20,162 nucleotides of DNA. Source: a virus. The position numbers and the translations under genes are program-made. The notes beneath the pieces were generated by a model. It saw only the letters and a list, made by a program, of their open reading frames with translations. It did no database searches and had not been told where the DNA came from. The stretch covers positions 1-20,162 of the IMG/VR virus record IMGVR_UViG_3300031601_000059; one strand, 5' to 3'. Shown piece after piece: positions 1 through 9,373 of the stretch; the first letter of the stretch is position 1, and each line of letters begins with the position of its first letter.

Positions 1-55
1 GTTTCACTCCTAATCGTTTCACTCCTAATCGTTTCACTCCTAATCGTTTCACTCC
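1..55. repeat. 15-bp tandem repeat at the left edge (GTTTCACTCCTAATC)
   Basis: Three exact copies of a 15-bp unit occupy 1-15, 16-30 and 31-45, followed by a 10-base partial copy (46-55). The copies abut with no spacers, so this is a simple tandem array and not a CRISPR array. It runs straight into the TAGGG tract after five bases (CTTTG). The array may continue to the left of the window or reflect a contig end. No function can be assigned from sequence. Confidence 0.95.
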
Positions 56-60
56 CTTTG

Positions 61-124
61 TAGGGTAGGGTAGGGTAGGGTAGGGTAGGGTAGGGTAGGG
101 TAGGGTAGGGTAGGGTAGGGTAGG
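61..124 (+). repeat. (TAGGG)12 tract, G-quadruplex-prone and telomere-like
   Basis: Twelve perfect TAGGG units (61-120) are followed by TAGG (121-124). Runs of three G separated by TA fit the G-quadruplex pattern on the + strand. The unit resembles telomeric TTAGGG but is one base shorter. It is G-rich on the strand whose 5' end points outward, the reverse of a normal eukaryotic left telomere. More TAGGG-type motifs occur between 190 and 440. The role is unknown; an origin, packaging or termination site, or slippage expansion are all possible. Confidence 0.95.
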
Positions 125-213
125 TGTTAAGCCGTGAGCGCTTGCTAGTCGGCCGTCACCGACCGGGGAGCCCTAACCCGGTATTAGTTTAGGGGGGAGT
201 GGTGTTAAGCCGT
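123..213. repeat. 13-bp direct repeat pair (GGTGTTAAGCCGT)
   Basis: The same 13 bases occur at 123-135 and 201-213. Between them lies GC-rich sequence with two small hairpins: GTCGG/CCGAC at 148-152 and 159-163, and CCCTAA/TTAGGG at 171-176 and 189-194. No open reading frame is present. This is part of the non-coding stretch 1-471, which holds only repeats, hairpins and a promoter. Confidence 0.75.
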
Positions 214-227
214 TAGGGTCTCTCACA

Positions 228-261
228 GGGCCTAAAAATAAATAAATTTATTTTTAGGCCC
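228..261. repeat. 34-nt near-perfect palindrome
   Basis: Sixteen bases on each side are exact reverse complements around a 2-base centre. The outer part is GGGCCT/AGGCCC and the inner part is A/T only. In RNA it would form a strong hairpin of about 15 bp with a 4-base loop (TAAA). There is no T tract on either side, so it is not a standard terminator. A cruciform or a dimeric protein site is possible. Confidence 0.9.
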
Positions 262-289
262 AAAGGCTAAAAATCGGGGTAGGCTAACA

Positions 290-378
290 CCGACCCACGT
301 ATATGGTTAGGAAGTTAGCTATAGCTAACCGAAGTTAAGGCAACTAAACCGAGGTTCCTAATCCTATACGTGGGTCGG
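290..378. repeat. Nested inverted repeat with an inner 16-nt perfect palindrome
   Basis: The outer arms at 290-313 and 355-378 are reverse complements apart from a small offset near GGTTAGG/CCTAATCC. The match includes CCGACCCACGTATA against TATACGTGGGTCGG. Inside, 314-329 (GTTAGCTATAGCTAAC) is a perfect palindrome. A third pair, AACTAAACC near 342-350 and GGTTTAGTT at 378-386, overlaps the right arm and could form an alternative fold. The block lies just upstream of the promoter at 387-420. Confidence 0.85.
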
Positions 379-386
379 GTTTAGTT

Positions 387-420
387 GGGCTTTACTTAGG
401 GGTATAGGGTAGGGTATACT
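387..420 (+). promoter_or_regulatory. Promoter-like element upstream of the KNAATP-repeat gene
   Basis: TTTACT (391-396) and TATACT (415-420) are separated by 18 bases and resemble sigma70 -35 and -10 boxes. The wider form GGGCTTTACTT, 13 bases, then AGGGTATACT recurs with identical spacing at 1876-1909 ahead of the terminase genes. That repetition is the best evidence that it is functional. Transcription would start near 427, giving a leader of about 45 bases that carries the hairpin at 424-452. Confidence 0.65.
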
Positions 421-423
421 TAC

Positions 424-452
424 TTTGGTGCCGGGGTAGGCTCGGCGCCAAA
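424..452 (+). other. Leader hairpin (TTTGGTGCC / GGCGCCAAA)
   Basis: Nine-base arms at 424-432 and 444-452 pair with one G-T wobble around an 11-base loop (433-443) that contains GGGGTAGG. It sits between the promoter and the ATG at 472, near the predicted 5' end of the transcript. It could stabilise the mRNA or be a regulatory site. No terminator-like T tract follows. Confidence 0.6.
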
Positions 453-471
453 AACCGAAAGGGTTTAGACC

Positions 472-843
472 ATGAAGAACGCAGCAACCCCTAAGAACGC
501 AGCAACCCCTAAGAACGCAGCAACCCCTAAGAACGCAGCAACCCCTAAGAACGCAGCAACCCCTAAGAACGCAGCAACCCCTAAGAACGCAGCAACCCCC
601 ACCGTGCCAGTGCGGATGCCACCGAAAAACGGCGGAGGTCGCGCGGTGAAGTACGGGGCAAATCTGGTGGTAACCGTAATAGTAGCCAACCCAAAGAGGG
701 TTGGTAGCAAAACGGCGGAGCGCTTTGAAAAGTACCTGAGCGGGAAGACCGTAGCAGAAAACATGAAAGCGGGAGTTACCCGAGCCGACCTAGACTGGGA
801 CTACAACCGGAGTTTCATTGACCTGACCACATTGGTGAAGTAG
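472..843 (+). CDS. Small KNAATP-repeat protein of unknown function
   Basis: This 123-residue protein has unknown function. Residues 2-43 are seven tandem KNAATP hexapeptides, followed by a Pro/Gly/Lys-rich linker (about 44-62). The C-terminal core (about 63-123) contains a beta-like VVTVIV segment, NPKRVGSKTAERFEKYLSG, a second likely helix, and TRADLDWDYNRSF. The core reminds me of short uncharacterised proteins in bacterial and phage genomes (NPKR...GSK...RF, then AGVTRADL.WD), but this is from memory. The basic Lys/Ala/Pro repeat recalls histone-H1-like tails, so nucleic-acid binding is a guess. The gene stands alone with a promoter upstream and a strong terminator after the stop. The ribosome-binding site is weak (GAAAGGG, about 8 bases before ATG). 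The antisense frame through the same repeats is a shadow. Confidence 0.8.
   Translation: MKNAATPKNAATPKNAATPKNAATPKNAATPKNAATPKNAATPTVPVRMPPKNGGGRAVKYGANLVVTVIVANPKRVGSKTAERFEKYLSGKTVAENMKAGVTRADLDWDYNRSFIDLTTLVK
475..600 (+). repeat. Seven 18-bp tandem repeats inside the KNAATP gene
   Basis: The unit AAGAACGCAGCAACCCCT is repeated seven times (475-492 through 583-600). Only the final base of the last copy differs (C for T). Synonymous third positions are otherwise identical, which points to recent expansion by slippage or recombination. Each junction contains CCCCTAAG, the reverse complement of CTTAGGGG, so the repeat carries C-rich complements of the TAGGG motif upstream. Confidence 0.97.
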
Positions 844-855
844 CCCCCGAACCCC

Positions 856-891
856 AAGCCCCCACAGCTTAGCTGTGGGGGCTTTCTTTTT
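856..891 (+). terminator. Strong intrinsic terminator after the KNAATP gene
   Basis: A 14-bp perfect stem (856-869 with 871-884) in a GC-rich palindrome is followed by TTTCTTTTT (883-891). It begins 13 bases after the stop codon at 841-843. Together with the promoter at 387-420 it makes the upstream gene a separate transcription unit. An open frame that starts inside this hairpin (875-1084) is therefore unlikely to be a gene. Confidence 0.9.
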
Positions 892-1110
892 GGCTGTTGG
901 CCCTTGGATACGTGAAACCGTGTTCATGTGGCTAAGGGTAATCGCGTGTATACGTAACTACGTTGTGCCTTGGTCTATGGTGCTAGCTAAGCAGCATAGA
1001 ATACGTGACAATACAGCCCACGTTATAGGGCCAAGAACGCTTATACGTAAGCAGCGCTGCTTACGTAAAAATTCCCCGGCGTAAGACCCTTGAACCGTAG
1101 CCAATGCTAC
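892..1110. other. Non-coding stretch with scattered ACGT boxes
   Basis: No convincing gene lies here. TACGT or ACGT cores occur near 909, 951, 959, 1002, 1020, 1044 and 1063, with more in the iteron tract and at 1241. Several are embedded in ATACGTG or TACGTA. The density and the flanking palindrome suggest a protein-binding or replication region. This is inference, since no known consensus is matched. Confidence 0.5.
1044..1067. repeat. Perfect 24-nt palindrome
   Basis: Twelve bases (TACGTAAGCAGC) are followed directly by their exact reverse complement. The outer TACGTA boxes match the ACGT motifs around it, and the centre contains AGCGCT. A related shorter palindrome, GTAGCGCTAC, lies at 1234-1243. 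With no loop, it is more likely a dimeric protein site or cruciform than an RNA hairpin. Confidence 0.9.
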
Positions 1111-1214
1111 TACGTTTATACGTTTCTACGTTTCTACGTTTATACGTTTATATGTTTCTATGTTTCTACGTTTCTACGTTTCTACGTTTCTACGTTTCTA
1201 CGTTTATACGTTTC
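1111..1214. repeat. Thirteen tandem 8-bp repeats (TACGTTTC/TACGTTTA), iteron-like
   Basis: Thirteen head-to-tail octamers run from 1111 to 1214. The consensus is TACGTTTM: position 8 is C or A, and two copies (1151 and 1159) have TATG instead of TACG. The repeat carries the same ACGT core as the boxes upstream. Short tandem iterons next to AT-rich DNA are a common layout for replication origins or partition sites. The period is not 10-11 bp, so bound proteins would not all face one side of the helix. Function is inferred only from layout. Confidence 0.92.
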
Positions 1215-1352
1215 ATCTTAACCCCATAAGCGGGTAGCGCTACGTAAACAGGCCGGGGCCAATTGCCGCATACCAACTTTGCAATAATTTTGAAAAAGAG
1301 GCATTCACACAATACCTGTTGAGCTATGGACAAATCAAAACCGTTTCAATTT

Positions 1353-1380
1353 AAAGAGTATTGGAGACGAAATACTCTTT
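1353..1380. repeat. Perfect 10-bp inverted repeat (AAAGAGTATT / AATACTCTTT)
   Basis: The arms at 1353-1362 and 1371-1380 flank an 8-base loop, GGAGACGA. The sequence following is TCACG, so the T tract needed for an intrinsic terminator is missing on the + strand. AAAGAG at the left arm gives a short T-rich tail if read on the - strand, but this is weak. Confidence 0.7.
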
Positions 1381-1441
1381 TCACGTGTAGCTGCCCTATA
1401 TAAAAAGGACCTAAAATAGTGTTTTTATAGAGAATTATGAG

Positions 1442-1525
1442 AAAGGTATTAGGTATTAGCTCCATATTGGAAAGTAAAAAAAGTTTTTACGCGTCCATTT
1501 TTTAAAGCTAATACTTTAATACCTT
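1442..1525. repeat. Long imperfect inverted repeat built on GGTATTAGCT
   Basis: The left arm at 1442-1461 (AAAGGTATTAGGTATTAGCT) pairs with the right arm at 1506-1525 (AGCTAATACTTTAATACCTT), broken by a small internal mismatch. The loop contains a second small stem, GTAAAAA with TTTTTAC, near 1474-1490. The GGTATTRGC motif recurs at 1794-1802 and in reverse at 1836-1844. Confidence 0.7.
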
Positions 1526-1621
1526 TATCTTTTAATCATTTTAACAAGGATATAGCCCCTAAACCTACTGATGAAATGGGAATAGTATTACTTTTAGTAG
1601 GTCATACTCCTTTGCTTATTT

Positions 1622-1663
1622 AACCTGGTGATGTATTCCGAACCCCGACCACCGCACCAGGTT
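1622..1663. repeat. 9-bp inverted repeat (AACCTGGTG / CACCAGGTT)
   Basis: Exact 9-base arms at 1622-1630 and 1655-1663 are separated by 24 bases. The right arm overlaps a smaller stem, AGGTTC/GAACCT (1659-1664 and 1674-1679), which is followed by TTTT and could act as a weak terminator. The two stems cannot form together. Confidence 0.55.
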
Positions 1664-1740
1664 CCAAGTCCAAGAACCTTTTAAGAAGAACACGTCTGGT
1701 ATTGCCTATTAAGGGTCCAGTACGGACGAAAAAGGCGATC

Positions 1741-1844
1741 CAATTAAGCCAATAACATCAAAACAGTAAAAACCATATCTTTAATTGAAAAAAGGTATTG
1801 GCTAAAGACAAAAAATGAGTTGCTTTTAATACGACGCTAATACC
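1741..1844 (+). other. Overlapping alternative hairpins with GGTATTRGC motif
   Basis: CAATTAA (1741-1747) can pair with TTAATTG (1781-1787). AGCCAATA (1747-1754) can pair with TATTGGCT (1796-1803). GGTATTGGC (1794-1802) can instead pair with GCTAATACC (1836-1844) with one G-T wobble. At least two of these folds compete. The block lies just upstream of the structural-operon promoter, so an RNA switch would need transcription from further upstream. Confidence 0.45.
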
Positions 1845-1875
1845 TCTAATAATCGTTTTATACAAGTCTAAATTG

Positions 1876-1909
1876 GGGCTTTACTTTCAACCCACAGATA
1901 GGGTATAAT
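1876..1909 (+). promoter_or_regulatory. Promoter-like element driving the packaging/structural operon
   Basis: TTTACT (1880-1885), an 18-base spacer and TATAAT (1904-1909) form a good sigma70-like promoter. GGGCTTTACTT at 1876-1886 and AGGGTATAAT at 1900-1909 repeat the element at 387-420 with exactly the same spacing. The predicted start near 1916 would leave a leader of only about 11 bases, nearly all taken up by the ribosome-binding site of the small terminase gene. Confidence 0.7.
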
Positions 1910-1916
1910 AGGGGTT

Positions 1917-1921
1917 GGAGG
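1917..1921 (+). promoter_or_regulatory. Ribosome-binding site deciding the small terminase start
   Basis: GGAGG at 1917-1921 is followed by 5 bases and then ATG at 1927. This favours the ATG over the in-frame TTG at 1915, which would overlap the ribosome-binding site itself. Confidence 0.8.
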
Positions 1922-1926
1922 TTAAA

Positions 1927-2559
1927 ATGGCAACACCAGGGAACCCAAAAGATAAAGTAGTTATCCCACAAAAGTTAGTCACCCAGGAACAAGAGGCCCA
2001 GCTCAAAGAAGAGATTGGGGGCTTGACCTACCTACAATGGATGTTCATTAATGAGTACTCTGTTGATTTTTGCGGGAAACAGGCTGCAATTCGCGCGGGC
2101 TATGCTCCAGCCACCGCGCACGTGCAGGCGTCCAAACAGTTAAAGAAGCCAGCTGTCCAAAAAGCATTGGCCACGGTCATTTTAGACAAGTCTGAACGGA
2201 CAAAGATAACGTCCGATATGGTGCTGACAGAGTATGCTAAGATTGCTTTCAGCTCAATTGGGGACATCTGTGATTGGACCGATTCCGGATTGGTCAACAT
2301 CAAGGCCTCCGAGGACATCCCAGACGGGGCCATGGGTGCCATCTGCGAAGTCAGCCGGATCCCAACTGAGATGGGAATGGCTGTTAAGGTGAAGATGCAT
2401 GACAAATTGTCTGCACTGAAGGATGTTGCAAAACATCTTGGTATGTTCAACCAGAACAAGGTCACTGATGCTCAGGATGACAAGTACTCAACATTATCCG
2501 CTGTAGAGCTTGCCAAGATCGTGAACTTCCAGCAGAAACAACTTGAGGCTCAGGGATAA
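1927..2559 (+). CDS. Terminase small subunit
   Basis: A 210-residue protein that likely recognises the packaging start site on phage DNA and presents it to the large terminase. Residues 33-75 hold the diagnostic helix-turn-helix pattern of the Terminase_2-type small subunit: an aromatic LQWMFINEY stretch, then KQAAIRAGYAPATAHVQASK. A central helical region follows, and the C-terminus is charged and probably contacts the large subunit. Length is typical. The ATG at 1927 is preferred because of GGAGG at 1917-1921. The stop overlaps the start of the large subunit (TAATG at 2557-2561), giving translational coupling. Being first in the operon, with repeat-rich DNA directly upstream, makes that DNA a candidate for its binding site. 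Confidence 0.9.
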   Translation: MATPGNPKDKVVIPQKLVTQEQEAQLKEEIGGLTYLQWMFINEYSVDFCGKQAAIRAGYAPATAHVQASKQLKKPAVQKALATVILDKSERTKITSDMVLTEYAKIAFSSIGDICDWTDSGLVNIKASEDIPDGAMGAICEVSRIPTEMGMAVKVKMHDKLSALKDVAKHLGMFNQNKVTDAQDDKYSTLSAVELAKIVNFQQKQLEAQG

Positions 2560-3878
2560 TGCCCACTGCCACTTTAGAGGAAGCACTGCCCAAGACACCA
2601 GGCGACCGGGCAGCACTGGCCAAGGCAATACGCTACAACTGGGAGTTGCATAGACGCCCAGAGCAGTGGCCTGACCCTAATGAGCGCGACTGGAAGACCT
2701 GGATGTATGTGGCTGGCCGTGGATCAGGGAAAACAAGAGCCGGGGCCGAGCTCATCCGCCATTATGTGGAGAATTTTGAACACTATTTCGGGGTGCCTCC
2801 TGAAAAGGGTATTATACACTTTATTGCTCCGACTGTCAGTGATCTGCGGGATGTGATGGTGGAGGGTGATTCTGGGATCATAAGTGTGTCTGCCCCGTGG
2901 TTTATGCCCCTGTACGAGCCATCCAAGCGCAGAGTCACGTGGCCAAACGGAGTAAAGGCACTCTTGTTTTCGGCTGACGAGCCGGAACGGCTTCGGGGTC
3001 CCCAATGTCACCTGTTGTGGGCGGACGAGATAGCCTCCTGGAGACGGCCCAACACATGGGACATGGCAATCTTTGGTAATCGCCTGGGGGCCAATCCCAA
3101 AAGGATTGTGACTGGGACCCCGAAGCCCACCAAGCTGATCAAGTCCATACTAAAGGATAAGGGCACATATGTCACAAAGGGCAGCACCTATGACAATGTA
3201 GACAACCTTGCCCCATCATTCATCGAGGAGATCAGGCTCAAGTATGAAGGCTCAAGGATGGGCCGTCAGGAGATCCATGCAGAGATTCTTGAGGACAACG
3301 AGAATGCACTTTGGACTCGCCACATTATTGACTTAGGCCGTGTTGTGCGGACTCCTCCTGGGATTGATATCGTGCGGATGATTGTGGCCTTGGATCCATC
3401 CTGTGGTGGAGGAAAGGATAGTGATGATGCCGGAATCATTGTTGCCGGGAAGGGCTCAGATAAAGAGTACTATGTATTTGACGATTGTACCTGTTCTGGA
3501 TCCCCATTCAAATGGGCCCGTGCAGCTGCAACAGCTTATCACACTCATGCCTGTGACCGGGTTGTGTACGAAAAGAATCAAGGCGGTCTTATGGTGGAGT
3601 CAACAATCGCAAACTATGACACAAAGTTGCCTCTCAAAGGTGTCCATGCCAGTCGAGGTAAAATCACCAGGGCAGAGCCAATTTCAACACTCTACGAGCA
3701 AGGTCGGGTTCATCACGTTGGAGAATTTCCTGAATTAGAAGACGAGCTTTGTCAGTGGGAGCCAGGCCAGTCCTCTCCCAACAGGCTTGATGCACTCGTG
3801 TGGGGGGTGACAGATCTTCATGGGTCCAGCGGCGTTGCACATGCAATGACAACCAGTAGGGACATAAGACCACAATGA
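2559..3878 (+). CDS. Terminase large subunit (packaging ATPase/nuclease)
   Basis: A 439-residue motor protein that pumps DNA into the prohead and cuts it. The ATPase domain shows Walker A GRGSGKT at residues 53-59, Walker B LLWADEI at 152-158 and a coupling motif TGTP at 185-188. The C-terminal RNase H-like nuclease domain shows acidic residues at D279 (ALDPS), E338 (YEKNQGG) and D411 (RLDALVWG). The GRGSGKTRAGAE motif resembles the COG5323 large terminase group found in gene transfer agents and many phages. The protein appears complete. It overlaps the small subunit by one base and the portal gene by four bases (ATGA). Confidence 0.96.
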   Translation: MPTATLEEALPKTPGDRAALAKAIRYNWELHRRPEQWPDPNERDWKTWMYVAGRGSGKTRAGAELIRHYVENFEHYFGVPPEKGIIHFIAPTVSDLRDVMVEGDSGIISVSAPWFMPLYEPSKRRVTWPNGVKALLFSADEPERLRGPQCHLLWADEIASWRRPNTWDMAIFGNRLGANPKRIVTGTPKPTKLIKSILKDKGTYVTKGSTYDNVDNLAPSFIEEIRLKYEGSRMGRQEIHAEILEDNENALWTRHIIDLGRVVRTPPGIDIVRMIVALDPSCGGGKDSDDAGIIVAGKGSDKEYYVFDDCTCSGSPFKWARAAATAYHTHACDRVVYEKNQGGLMVESTIANYDTKLPLKGVHASRGKITRAEPISTLYEQGRVHHVGEFPELEDELCQWEPGQSSPNRLDALVWGVTDLHGSSGVAHAMTTSRDIRPQ

Positions 3879-5275
3879 GGTTTCCAAGAATATTTGGCCA
3901 ACACCGCAGAGAGGTTAACAAGTTGACAGTGCTCAATACCAAGTTGCAGCACTTCAATTCCATGCTGGTCAGGGACTTTGATCCTTTGACTGGGAGTGTT
4001 GGTGGTGGAGGGTACAATGGCAACCCATACAAGAGCTATGAAACTCAGGTAACTGCGACTGCAAACATGTATGATGGCTTTGCGGACTGGGGTTGCCAGC
4101 AAGTGAAGTCCATTATTGATGCCAGAGCGGCCCTTACAGCCGGCTCTGGAGTTCAACCCAAGGTCACTGATGTGGTGGAGAACGAGGGTGGGGCTAAGAA
4201 GGAGTTGGAGTGGGTTCGCAAGTTCGTGCAGTTCAACGGGTTACAAGGTAAGACAGGGGTTGAGTGGGCCAAGGAGGCGGAGATTGAGGGCAAGTGCCTT
4301 GCTAAGTTGTCACTTGACCGGAAGTTTGGGCAAATTGTTGTTCGGTTTATCCCTTGGTCTCAGCGAAGCTACACCGTGCACACTGACACAGATGATTATG
4401 AGCACTATACTGGTGTAGAGTTTCACGACGAGGGCAAGAAGGTTTCGTGGGGTGAGGATGATTTTGTGTACACCAAGTTTGGTGGCCGCATTAACAATCC
4501 CAACATTTCACCAACAAAGATAGGGGTAGTACTGGGCAAAATCGAGGCCTTAGACAAGGCACTTCGTGACCTTCGCGAAGTCAACCATCTGTTTGCTTCC
4601 CCCACCCCCACCTTTGAGTGTGAGGACAAGAACGCTGCTGAAGAATTGTATGACATGCTTGAGAGCATCAAGTGGACCATTGGTAAGATGCTTGTGGTTG
4701 GAGCCGCCAAGTACAAGATGGTGGGTGTGGATCTAGCAGCTGTTGAGACTCTTGAGCGTGAGATCACGATCAACGCCAAGATTGTCTCTGGCGCAGTGGG
4801 GCTTCCTGTTCATTTTCTTGGGTTCCCAGAGCTCATGTCTAATCGTTCTACTGCGGATTCGTCCATGGAAATGGTGTTCTCCTCAGTCCATCGTGAGCGT
4901 GAAACATGGGTGAAGTTTTACACAGAGCTGTTCCGCAAAGCCATTGTGATGTCCAACAAGTACCTCAACACCACTCTTGATGGGGACAAGGTTTGTGCTG
5001 AGATCCCTCACAGCAGCAACACCAAGATGCGCCAAGTGATTGAGTTTTGGATGGAGCTGGCAGATAGGGACGCCATCTCTAAGGAAACATTGGTTGAGCA
5101 AATCCCCGGTATTGATGCTCAGCAAGAGTTGAATCGCTTGAAGAAGGAGAAGAAGGAGGCCGAGGCTGACTTGATTGATGGCCTGAGGAACTCGAAGAAT
5201 CCTGCCCCACCCAAGGACCAGAAAACTCTGGACGAGAACCGGCTTGGAAGGCCAGCGGAGAGAAACAGTGATTAA
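3875..5275 (+). CDS. Portal protein
   Basis: A 466-residue protein whose position right after the large terminase and whose sequence fit a dodecameric portal forming the DNA channel at one head vertex. The middle region has the beta-rich pattern with FIPWSQRSYTV and a long helix. Near residues 300-350 lies the portal-typical stretch SGAVGLPVHFLGFPE followed by NRSTADSSMEMVF, before the crown region. The C-terminal 60 residues are highly charged (KKEKKEAEADL) and probably helical. It overlaps the terminase by four bases. Family assignment relies on context and motif feel, since portals diverge strongly. Confidence 0.88.
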   Translation: MRFPRIFGQHRREVNKLTVLNTKLQHFNSMLVRDFDPLTGSVGGGGYNGNPYKSYETQVTATANMYDGFADWGCQQVKSIIDARAALTAGSGVQPKVTDVVENEGGAKKELEWVRKFVQFNGLQGKTGVEWAKEAEIEGKCLAKLSLDRKFGQIVVRFIPWSQRSYTVHTDTDDYEHYTGVEFHDEGKKVSWGEDDFVYTKFGGRINNPNISPTKIGVVLGKIEALDKALRDLREVNHLFASPTPTFECEDKNAAEELYDMLESIKWTIGKMLVVGAAKYKMVGVDLAAVETLEREITINAKIVSGAVGLPVHFLGFPELMSNRSTADSSMEMVFSSVHRERETWVKFYTELFRKAIVMSNKYLNTTLDGDKVCAEIPHSSNTKMRQVIEFWMELADRDAISKETLVEQIPGIDAQQELNRLKKEKKEAEADLIDGLRNSKNPAPPKDQKTLDENRLGRPAERNSD

Positions 5276-6832: not shown

Positions 6833-7825
6833 ATGCTTGGAAAGATTATCTCTGATTGGAGCAAGGTCAACCTCAGCAATGCAGAGGGACAGGCCCAGTT
6901 CCGTGGTGCAATGAACCATTTCTTGCAAGCCCCAGACCGTCCTGAAGTCCGCGCTGCCCTCCAGCACTTCACGCTGTCTGGTGACTTCCCCTCCGAGATG
7001 GCCCAGATCTTGCAAAAGTTCCATATCACCACCAACTTCGATGAAGGTTGGCAAACAATCTTCGATGTGCGGGACTTCACGAACACGAAGACCACTGGCT
7101 TTGACATCCTTGATGTTCAGTCCGGGTTGGCCTTCAACCATGTGAGCCCCGGTGAGGAAGTTAAGCTGTACAAGATGTCCGGCGCCAAAGTCAATGTTGG
7201 CTTTGACATGTACGGTGGGGGCCTTGGGTGGCATCGGACGTGGTTCGATGACAATACCTACTGGCTTGCCGAGGATTCGACCATCGAGTTCAACAACAAG
7301 GCATACGCCAAGCGTGCACAGATTTTCTACAATCTCATCGACGCGATTGGCGCCGGACAGAATCTTGCATGGCAAACCCCTGTCCCCACTGCGTTGGCGA
7401 ACACTGACCCCAACTATGTTGCGGTTCGTGACATGGCAACCATTGACAAGGCTTGCGAGACCATCTTGCTTGCAGTCAAGGACAAGGGCTATGGTGTGGG
7501 TGCAAACGCACAATTCCGCATCTTGGCCCCCATTCAGTTGCGCGCTCGCATCGCGCGGGCACTCAGCATTGCCAACTGGGGCCTCAGCCAAGGCTTCCCT
7601 GGTGTTCAGTATTCGGTAACCCCTCAGTACAGCATGATGATGTCGTCTGCATCCTCGTACTATGTGTGTCTCCCCGGCATTAAGTCCAAAGCTGGCATCC
7701 GTCAGAACTTGACCATGTTTGGTGAGTTTGACATGATGACCTACACGGACAAGGCTGCGGCATACATGCGCTTCGGTGGGGCCATTGGTGACACTGACCA
7801 GTTTCAGCGTTGTGCAATAGCATAG
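6833..7825 (+). CDS. Probable major capsid protein
   Basis: A 330-residue protein, probably the main shell subunit with an HK97-type fold. Support comes from its position after the protease/scaffold and decoration genes, its size, and the family-like course: an extended N-terminus, FDVRDFTNTKTTGFDILDV, then SPGEEVKLYKMSG and a helical stretch KAYAKRAQIFYNLIDAIGAG, ending with AAYMRFGGAIGD. There is no obvious N-terminal delta domain, which fits a separate scaffold gene. AAGGAG at 6816-6821 precedes the ATG by 11 bases. A hairpin follows the gene, possibly to raise its expression relative to downstream genes. No exact family name is claimed. Confidence 0.82.
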   Translation: MLGKIISDWSKVNLSNAEGQAQFRGAMNHFLQAPDRPEVRAALQHFTLSGDFPSEMAQILQKFHITTNFDEGWQTIFDVRDFTNTKTTGFDILDVQSGLAFNHVSPGEEVKLYKMSGAKVNVGFDMYGGGLGWHRTWFDDNTYWLAEDSTIEFNNKAYAKRAQIFYNLIDAIGAGQNLAWQTPVPTALANTDPNYVAVRDMATIDKACETILLAVKDKGYGVGANAQFRILAPIQLRARIARALSIANWGLSQGFPGVQYSVTPQYSMMMSSASSYYVCLPGIKSKAGIRQNLTMFGEFDMMTYTDKAAAYMRFGGAIGDTDQFQRCAIA

Positions 7826-7900: not shown

Positions 7901-9373
7901 ATGGCTCCTATGATAACAACGGCAGATCTTCGTAAGGTAGAAGCAGCAAAGATGGCCCAGGGAGACCCCACCCCATCTAAAGTCACAGTAATCACCACCA
8001 AGGACCTCATTGCTTCCACAAAGAGGAAAGAAGACTTTGAGGATGTTCAGCATCTTCTACGCGCCAGTAGCAATCGGTATCTGAAGCATCTCGTAGCAGA
8101 CCAGTGCTTGGCGGAAGCCCCGGTTGTGGTGGTTATTGGTGGGGGCCCAAGTGTCAAAACAGTAGATCTTGATGGCCTTGAAGGTGCAGTGGTGGTGGGG
8201 GTGAATAGAGGGTTTGAGCTTGATCAAGTGGGGATCAATGTCTCAATGGACTTGAGGTTTAAGCGCTGGATGTTTAATGGGGGTTACAAGGATCTCTCCC
8301 CTGACATTCTGGACACATGGAAGAACTGGCTTGGGGTAAAGGTATTTGCTGTGCTTCAAGAGACCCCGGTTCCTGAAAATGGGGAGGATCCCCCTTATGT
8401 TGTGTACAGACGCCAAGACCCTAACTTTGGTATTGAACGTTCCAATACCGAGGAAATGTGCAACTCAACCAACTCTGGCCAAGCAGCCATCCAGTTGGCA
8501 CTTGCATTAGGGGCCAAGAACGTCCACCTTATTGGGTTTGACATGAACCCATCAGAGAATGGCCAAGAACAGGAGTGGTACCACAATGGCCATCCTGAGA
8601 ACCAAGGGGCCCATGTGTATGACCGCATGGTGGACACAATGGTAGCCCCCGCCAAGTTTGCCCGGAACAACGGGGTAGAAATATTGAACCATAGTCAAGG
8701 TTCAGCCATCTCGTCATTCAACATTGCCAAGTCCGGTGCAGAGTGGAATGAAATGACTGCTACTATCCCAAAGCGCCCAGTTGTGGTGTCTTACTTCACT
8801 GACGAGTTGTACCATGACCACTGTAAGGAAATGGCCCAAACAGCCCACTTCTTTGGGATGTCCACTTGCTTGTACAGTATGGAGTCTCTAGGCTCATGGA
8901 TACGCAATTGTTCTTTGAAGCCTATGGTGATTGCCAAGGCCATGGAAGAGTTCCCTGATGACCCAATTCTCTTTGTGGATGCTGACTCTCGGTTCAGGAC
9001 CTACCCAACCTTGTTTGACAACCACAAGGGCCACTTTGGGTATTGCACATTTGATTGGCCTAAGTGGACAAATGGGCAGCGGGATGACAAGGAGATAAGT
9101 TCCGCTGTGCTGTACATCAAGAACGTAGCAATCACCAGGAAACTTGTGGCAACGTGGAAGGACGCATGTGAACGCAACCTTTCTGATGGGGTTGATGTTT
9201 GGGACCAGAAGGTGTTGGCCCATATCATCCGTAGTATGAAGTGGCATAACAAGGAAAAAGTGTTTGACATACCCCCTGCTTATTGCCAGATCTTTGACAC
9301 TATGGCACATCTTGGTGCTCCTGTCATTGAGCAAATGCAAGCCAGCCGGGAGGCACGGGTGAGGAGTTCATAA
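7901..9373 (+). CDS. Two-domain MptE/DUF115-like and GT-A-like glycosyltransferase
   Basis: A 490-residue fusion. Residues about 72-280 form a Rossmann-like domain: VVVVIGGGPSV (75-85), NSGQAAIQLALALGAKNVHLIGFDM (191-215). This resembles the MptE/DUF115 group, which includes proteins for nonulosonic-acid glycosylation. Residues about 290-480 resemble a GT-A nucleotide-sugar transferase: ILFVDADS (356-363, DXD-like), SSAVLYIKN, and VDVWDQKVL (431-439). AGAAAGG upstream supports the ATG. It sits between the capsid gene and the head-tail connector in the same orientation. The simplest role is attaching a sugar to a virion protein, but sugar donor and target are unknown. Enzymatic activity is inferred from motifs only. 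Confidence 0.75.
   Translation: MAPMITTADLRKVEAAKMAQGDPTPSKVTVITTKDLIASTKRKEDFEDVQHLLRASSNRYLKHLVADQCLAEAPVVVVIGGGPSVKTVDLDGLEGAVVVGVNRGFELDQVGINVSMDLRFKRWMFNGGYKDLSPDILDTWKNWLGVKVFAVLQETPVPENGEDPPYVVYRRQDPNFGIERSNTEEMCNSTNSGQAAIQLALALGAKNVHLIGFDMNPSENGQEQEWYHNGHPENQGAHVYDRMVDTMVAPAKFARNNGVEILNHSQGSAISSFNIAKSGAEWNEMTATIPKRPVVVSYFTDELYHDHCKEMAQTAHFFGMSTCLYSMESLGSWIRNCSLKPMVIAKAMEEFPDDPILFVDADSRFRTYPTLFDNHKGHFGYCTFDWPKWTNGQRDDKEISSAVLYIKNVAITRKLVATWKDACERNLSDGVDVWDQKVLAHIIRSMKWHNKEKVFDIPPAYCQIFDTMAHLGAPVIEQMQASREARVRSS

Follow-up and report, generated by a model that had tools for sequence, protein, structure and literature searches.

What gives rise to two perfect tandem arrays, one of them a long TAGGG tract, at the very edge of a phage contig? 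We addressed this question in IMG/VR record IMGVR_UViG_3300031601_000059, which was analysed over its whole length of 20,162 bases (hereafter, the window) and whose left edge holds a 15-bp repeat next to the TAGGG units (Table 1). The record is classed as "linear" by IMG/VR, meaning that no end repeats were found, and the window is a fragment because a reading frame is still open at its right end. A previous reading of the sequence only had noticed both arrays and had suggested that they could mark an origin, a site of packaging or termination, or a linear end. The evidence as it stands points to ordinary slippage.

Perfect arrays and a G-quadruplex motif at the left edge

Tandem Repeats Finder reported an array of period 15 at 1–55 (3.7 copies) and another of period 5 at 60–124 (13.0 copies), both with 100% matches, which together with the sequence itself bears out the earlier description of a 15-bp repeat of 3.7 copies and (TAGGG)12 lying side by side. 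The second array comprises 12 exact TAGGG units at 61–120, extended by partial units to 65 bp of perfect period 5. As a null for chance, we simulated the whole window 100 times with a first-order Markov model of its own dinucleotide content; the longest perfect tracts reached 16 bp for period 5, versus 65 bp observed, and 27 bp for period 15, versus 55 bp observed. Neither edge array is due to chance and, as in microsatellites, their copies are perfect and arranged head to tail to an extent beyond chance.

A scan of both strands for the motif G3+N1–7 retrieved a single G-quadruplex motif in the window, at 63–120 within the TAGGG tract. The tract had been called G-quadruplex-prone, a term that agrees with its motif of at least four runs of at least three G separated by short loops, and its folding as a G-quadruplex is possible, judging from these letters.

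TAGGG is also the telomere unit of some protists. The likeness to eukaryotic telomeres is in the sequence of the unit, whereas the orientation is reversed in the window, the tract is not terminal and the context is that of a phage. A telomere was rejected because the G-rich strand, here the + strand, runs inward and because another array occupies at least 55 bp on the outer side of the TAGGG tract; the previous reading had likewise remarked that, with the G-rich strand running inward, a telomere was not the simplest interpretation.

We found no other viral contig holding the 15-bp array of 1–55, and none carrying the flank 3′ of the TAGGG tract. Likewise, a DNA similarity search of 125–2600 against phages did not yield any match.

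Table 1. Features of the left part of the window, ordered by position.
Feature	Positions	Strand	Basis or remark
15-bp tandem array GTTTCACTCCTAATC, 3.7 perfect copies	1–55		Cut by the contig end
(TAGGG)12 followed by TAGG	61–124	+ (G-rich strand)	Only G4 motif in the window
16-bp direct repeat GGTGTTAAGCCGT(G/T)AG, two copies	123–138 and 201–216		Repeat search
Strong hairpin run before the small gene	228–452	+	Folding and inverted repeats
Small gene, 123 aa, no family found	472–843	+	N-terminal KNAATP hexapeptide repeats
18-bp tandem array, 6.9 perfect copies, in frame	475–599	+	4.9 copies in contig L009
Terminator-like hairpin with T-rich tail	856–892	+	3′ of the small gene
8-bp tandem array CTACGTTT, 13 imperfect copies	1110–1214		Tandem Repeats Finder
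AT-rich stretch, GC down to 0.28, no ORF of at least 60 aa	1276–1900		Composition and ORF list
Promoter-like site TTTACT-18-TATAAT	1880–1909	+	Just 5′ of terS; such sites are not commoner than in shuffles
Terminase small subunit (terS), Terminase_2	1927–2559	+	ORF and family match
Terminase large subunit (terL), Terminase_6N/6C	2559–3878	+	Family and sequence matches

A cluster of four arrays and a near-identical contig

The edge arrays have close neighbours. Two more arrays, at 475–599 and 1110–1214, were overlooked in the sequence-only reading, and all four, with unrelated units of 15, 5, 18 and 8 bp, are located in the first 1.2 kb of the window. We found no perfect array of at least 40 bp in the remaining 19 kb. 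The contigs with related terminases (204,575 bases) likewise contained no perfect tract of this length; they are distant controls, as the terminase is all that they have in common with the window. Three of the four arrays are perfect, resembling recent expansions, whereas the 8-bp array bears point changes and resembles an older one.

The edge arrays form part of a cluster of microsatellites and minisatellites in front of the terminase genes, which is probably young and a product of replication slippage, and the contig breaks off within one of its arrays. We prefer this explanation because it needs the fewest assumptions to account for the clustering, the perfection, the unrelated units and the change in length described below. 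Arrays would arise and change in length by strand slippage while the phage DNA replicates, in a stretch between gene modules that is presumably under little sequence constraint. When single-stranded, the TAGGG tract might form a G-quadruplex, promoting slippage or slowing polymerases, and no selected function would be required to account for it. The contig would stop at position 1 because the assembler halted inside the 15-bp array, and not at a chromosome end.

A contig from another metagenome, L009, is 99.9% identical to the window and matches positions 208–5064. The 4,821 aligned bases contain four substitutions (3062, 3110, 3938 and 4513), all of which fall within terL or the portal gene; the only other difference is of 36 bp, corresponding to exactly two units of the 18-bp array that L009 lacks (5 versus 7 copies). 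Slippage would produce a change of this kind. The change keeps the frame, which supports that the small gene at 472–843 is coding. Its deduced product contains seven KNAATP-type repeats followed by a C-terminal part of 80 amino acids without known relatives. Searches for homologues of this protein in phages and plasmids retrieved none; a further search, of 240 genomes from one class and 229 from a second class, was also negative, a weak result because it had no positive control.

Perfect short units arranged head to tail are also typical of the short tandem repeats of bacteria and phages, of the phase-variation type, with which the window shares a difference in length between near-identical strains, here in the neighbouring 18-bp array. 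It counts against slippage that this variation was observed in the adjacent 18-bp array and not in the TAGGG tract itself, and that the difference could also come from the assembler collapsing two units in L009. A further point against it is the neighbouring strongly folded region, whose function, if it has one, could favour the gain or retention of repeats: compared with shuffled sequences, folding reached z values of −6.0 for 125–475 and −6.3 for 280–390. The hairpin run in this region includes a perfect inverted repeat at 228–261, a structure with arms of 41 nt at 284–384 and a further one at 426–451, and an Rfam search of 228–452 yielded no family reaching its gathering score.

L009 also bears on whether assembly artefacts account for part of the left edge, with repeats mis-joined or with a wrong copy number, which we consider highly improbable. 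The end of the contig in a repeat would fit such an artefact, as would the start of L009 at 208, to the right of both edge arrays, which leaves them outside its coverage, and the different copy number of the 18-bp array in the two contigs. However, the edge arrays are perfect and, with 55 and 65 bp, shorter than common read lengths, so that single reads could span each of them; besides, their flank runs unbroken into sequence that is backed by L009 from 208 onwards.

Possible packaging and origin roles of the left region

The late module is normal from 1927 rightwards, with terS, terL and an SPP1-type portal gene followed by further head and tail genes, including those for a likely scaffold, a likely capsid protein, a Mu F-like minor head protein, a tape measure and an NlpC/P60 tail protein. 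The protein encoded at 7901–9373, whose gene is located between the capsid gene and the head-tail genes, shows a sialyltransferase-like match (phrog_4603). We rejected assigning a host to this phage because the terminase matches phages of many hosts, with 40–48% identity, the only match of the major-capsid-like protein (6833–7825) is from a Microcystis phage, with 26%, and the portal search among phages gave no match. A search for relatives with the capsid protein also retrieved nothing.

The edge arrays are upstream of the packaging genes, as had been claimed, but at some 1.8 kb from terS, and the small gene and the terminator-like hairpin that follows it (856–892) are located in between. Short-repeat arrays flank the terminal repeat of phage T7 (a literature search did not confirm this), and the edge arrays could by the same token mark a packaging site or a physical chromosome end, since they lie where the contig ends, on the side of the late genes that carries terS. 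We see this as very unlikely. Assemblies commonly break in tandem arrays, and this contig, a fragment for which IMG/VR found no end repeats, ends inside one. Additionally, pac is situated in or at terS in P22 and SPP1 (PMC9611059, PMC6316719), covering in the latter the terS promoter and the start of the gene (PMC6316719), whereas 1–124 is far from terS. SPP1, the best-studied phage with a comparable terS/portal arrangement, agrees with the window in its kinds of terS, portal and minor head protein; the two differ in that the TerL of the window is of the Terminase_6 type and in that 1–124 does not occupy a pac-like location. With SPP1 as a guide, a packaging role would fit the surroundings of terS (about 1880–2100) better than 1–124. 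A packaging site at 1–124 was rejected for its distance to terS and for the intervening gene with its own terminator-like hairpin, and nothing ties these positions to the packaging or termination site, or the linear end, that had been suggested.

Another alternative, which we regard as doubtful, is that the whole of 1–1900, and not 1–124 alone, constitutes a replication origin or a regulatory region. In such a region, an initiator would bind the direct repeats, the AT-rich stretch would melt and the G-quadruplex tract would affect strand opening or transcription. The origins of SPP1 combine direct repeats with an AT-rich stretch for unwinding (PMC6316719), and the window appears to resemble the anatomy of oriL and oriR at 1110–1900, where the 8-bp array, with its TACGT motif, and scattered copies of TACGT adjoin the AT-rich stretch. 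This motif is enriched, with 19 occurrences in 125–1900 versus 2.4 expected, and is scattered over 909–1241, also beyond the array. The strong hairpins at 228–452 would also be in keeping with an origin. However, direct repeats beside an AT-rich stretch, the anatomy that an iteron-type origin would have, are present at 1110–1600 and absent at 1–124, and the best origin-like arrangement leaves out the edge arrays. It also speaks against an origin that we recognised no replication gene in the window, that contigs with related terminases lack the arrays, and that the GC skew has no clear switch here. By analogy with SPP1, an origin role would suit 1110–1600 better than 1–124, and we found nothing to connect the latter with the origin that the sequence-only reading had proposed. 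It is likewise improbable that the arrays, including the long G4 tract, were selected for setting strand opening, transcription or concatemer processing before the packaging genes. Should the region prove to be a working origin, G4 DNA would be connected with phage replication.

TAGGG tracts in other genomes

Replication slippage, the explanation that we favour, can also be confronted with the TAGGG tracts present elsewhere. In a scan of 2.9 million viral contigs, we found at least five TAGGG units in only two contigs other than the window, L026 and L038, both unrelated to it, and at least eight units only in L026. Long perfect TAGGG arrays are thus nearly absent from the viral contigs searched, which agrees with the earlier opinion that such repeats are unusual in phage genomes, and a special cause in this phage is possible, given that so few viral contigs bear them. 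Pentanucleotide arrays were the rarest class in a survey of mycobacteriophages, with 17 motifs at three or more copies (PMC6426759); unlike those arrays, the one in the window has twelve copies, well above the threshold of three used there.

Stretches of (TAGGG)8 or longer were also scarce among 11.3 million contigs from species of bacteria and archaea, with only ten cases, six of them from Hymenobacter. The Hymenobacter stretches belong to L027, L029, L030, L032, L033 and L035, and three of them occur in one strain. The remaining carriers of such stretches are a gammaproteobacterium, Pirellula, Novosphingobium, a Dehalococcoidia bacterium and the phage contig L026.

As in the window, the tracts in L026 and Hymenobacter are perfect, with 8–20 copies, and other short arrays are found near the TAGGG tract in L026, L027, L034 and L036. 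In contrast to these likenesses, flanks and gene contexts are unrelated to those of the window and no common ancestry of the tract is visible; indeed, the flanks of the public (TAGGG)8+ tracts differ every time, and their locations are unrelated. Some tracts are compound, with nine copies of TGAG adjoining 9.6 copies of AGGGT in L027, and CAGGG units continuing into TAGGG in L036. Such a comparison reveals scattered occurrences that are unrelated to one another, and no conserved element. The unrelated flanks, the compound tracts and the extra arrays in L026 conform to a pattern of repeated independent slippage. A TAGGG array beside three others makes the left part of the window a natural place to study the birth of repeats and their tolerance in compact genomes.

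L026 (IMGVR_UViG_3300035689_001091), the nearest viral parallel, is an unrelated phage contig of 7,834 bases, which contains (TAGGG)17 between two genes and three further short arrays, with unit lengths that include 9 and 15 bp. The thymidylate synthase encoded by L026 has its nearest counterpart in Synechococcus phages (56%).
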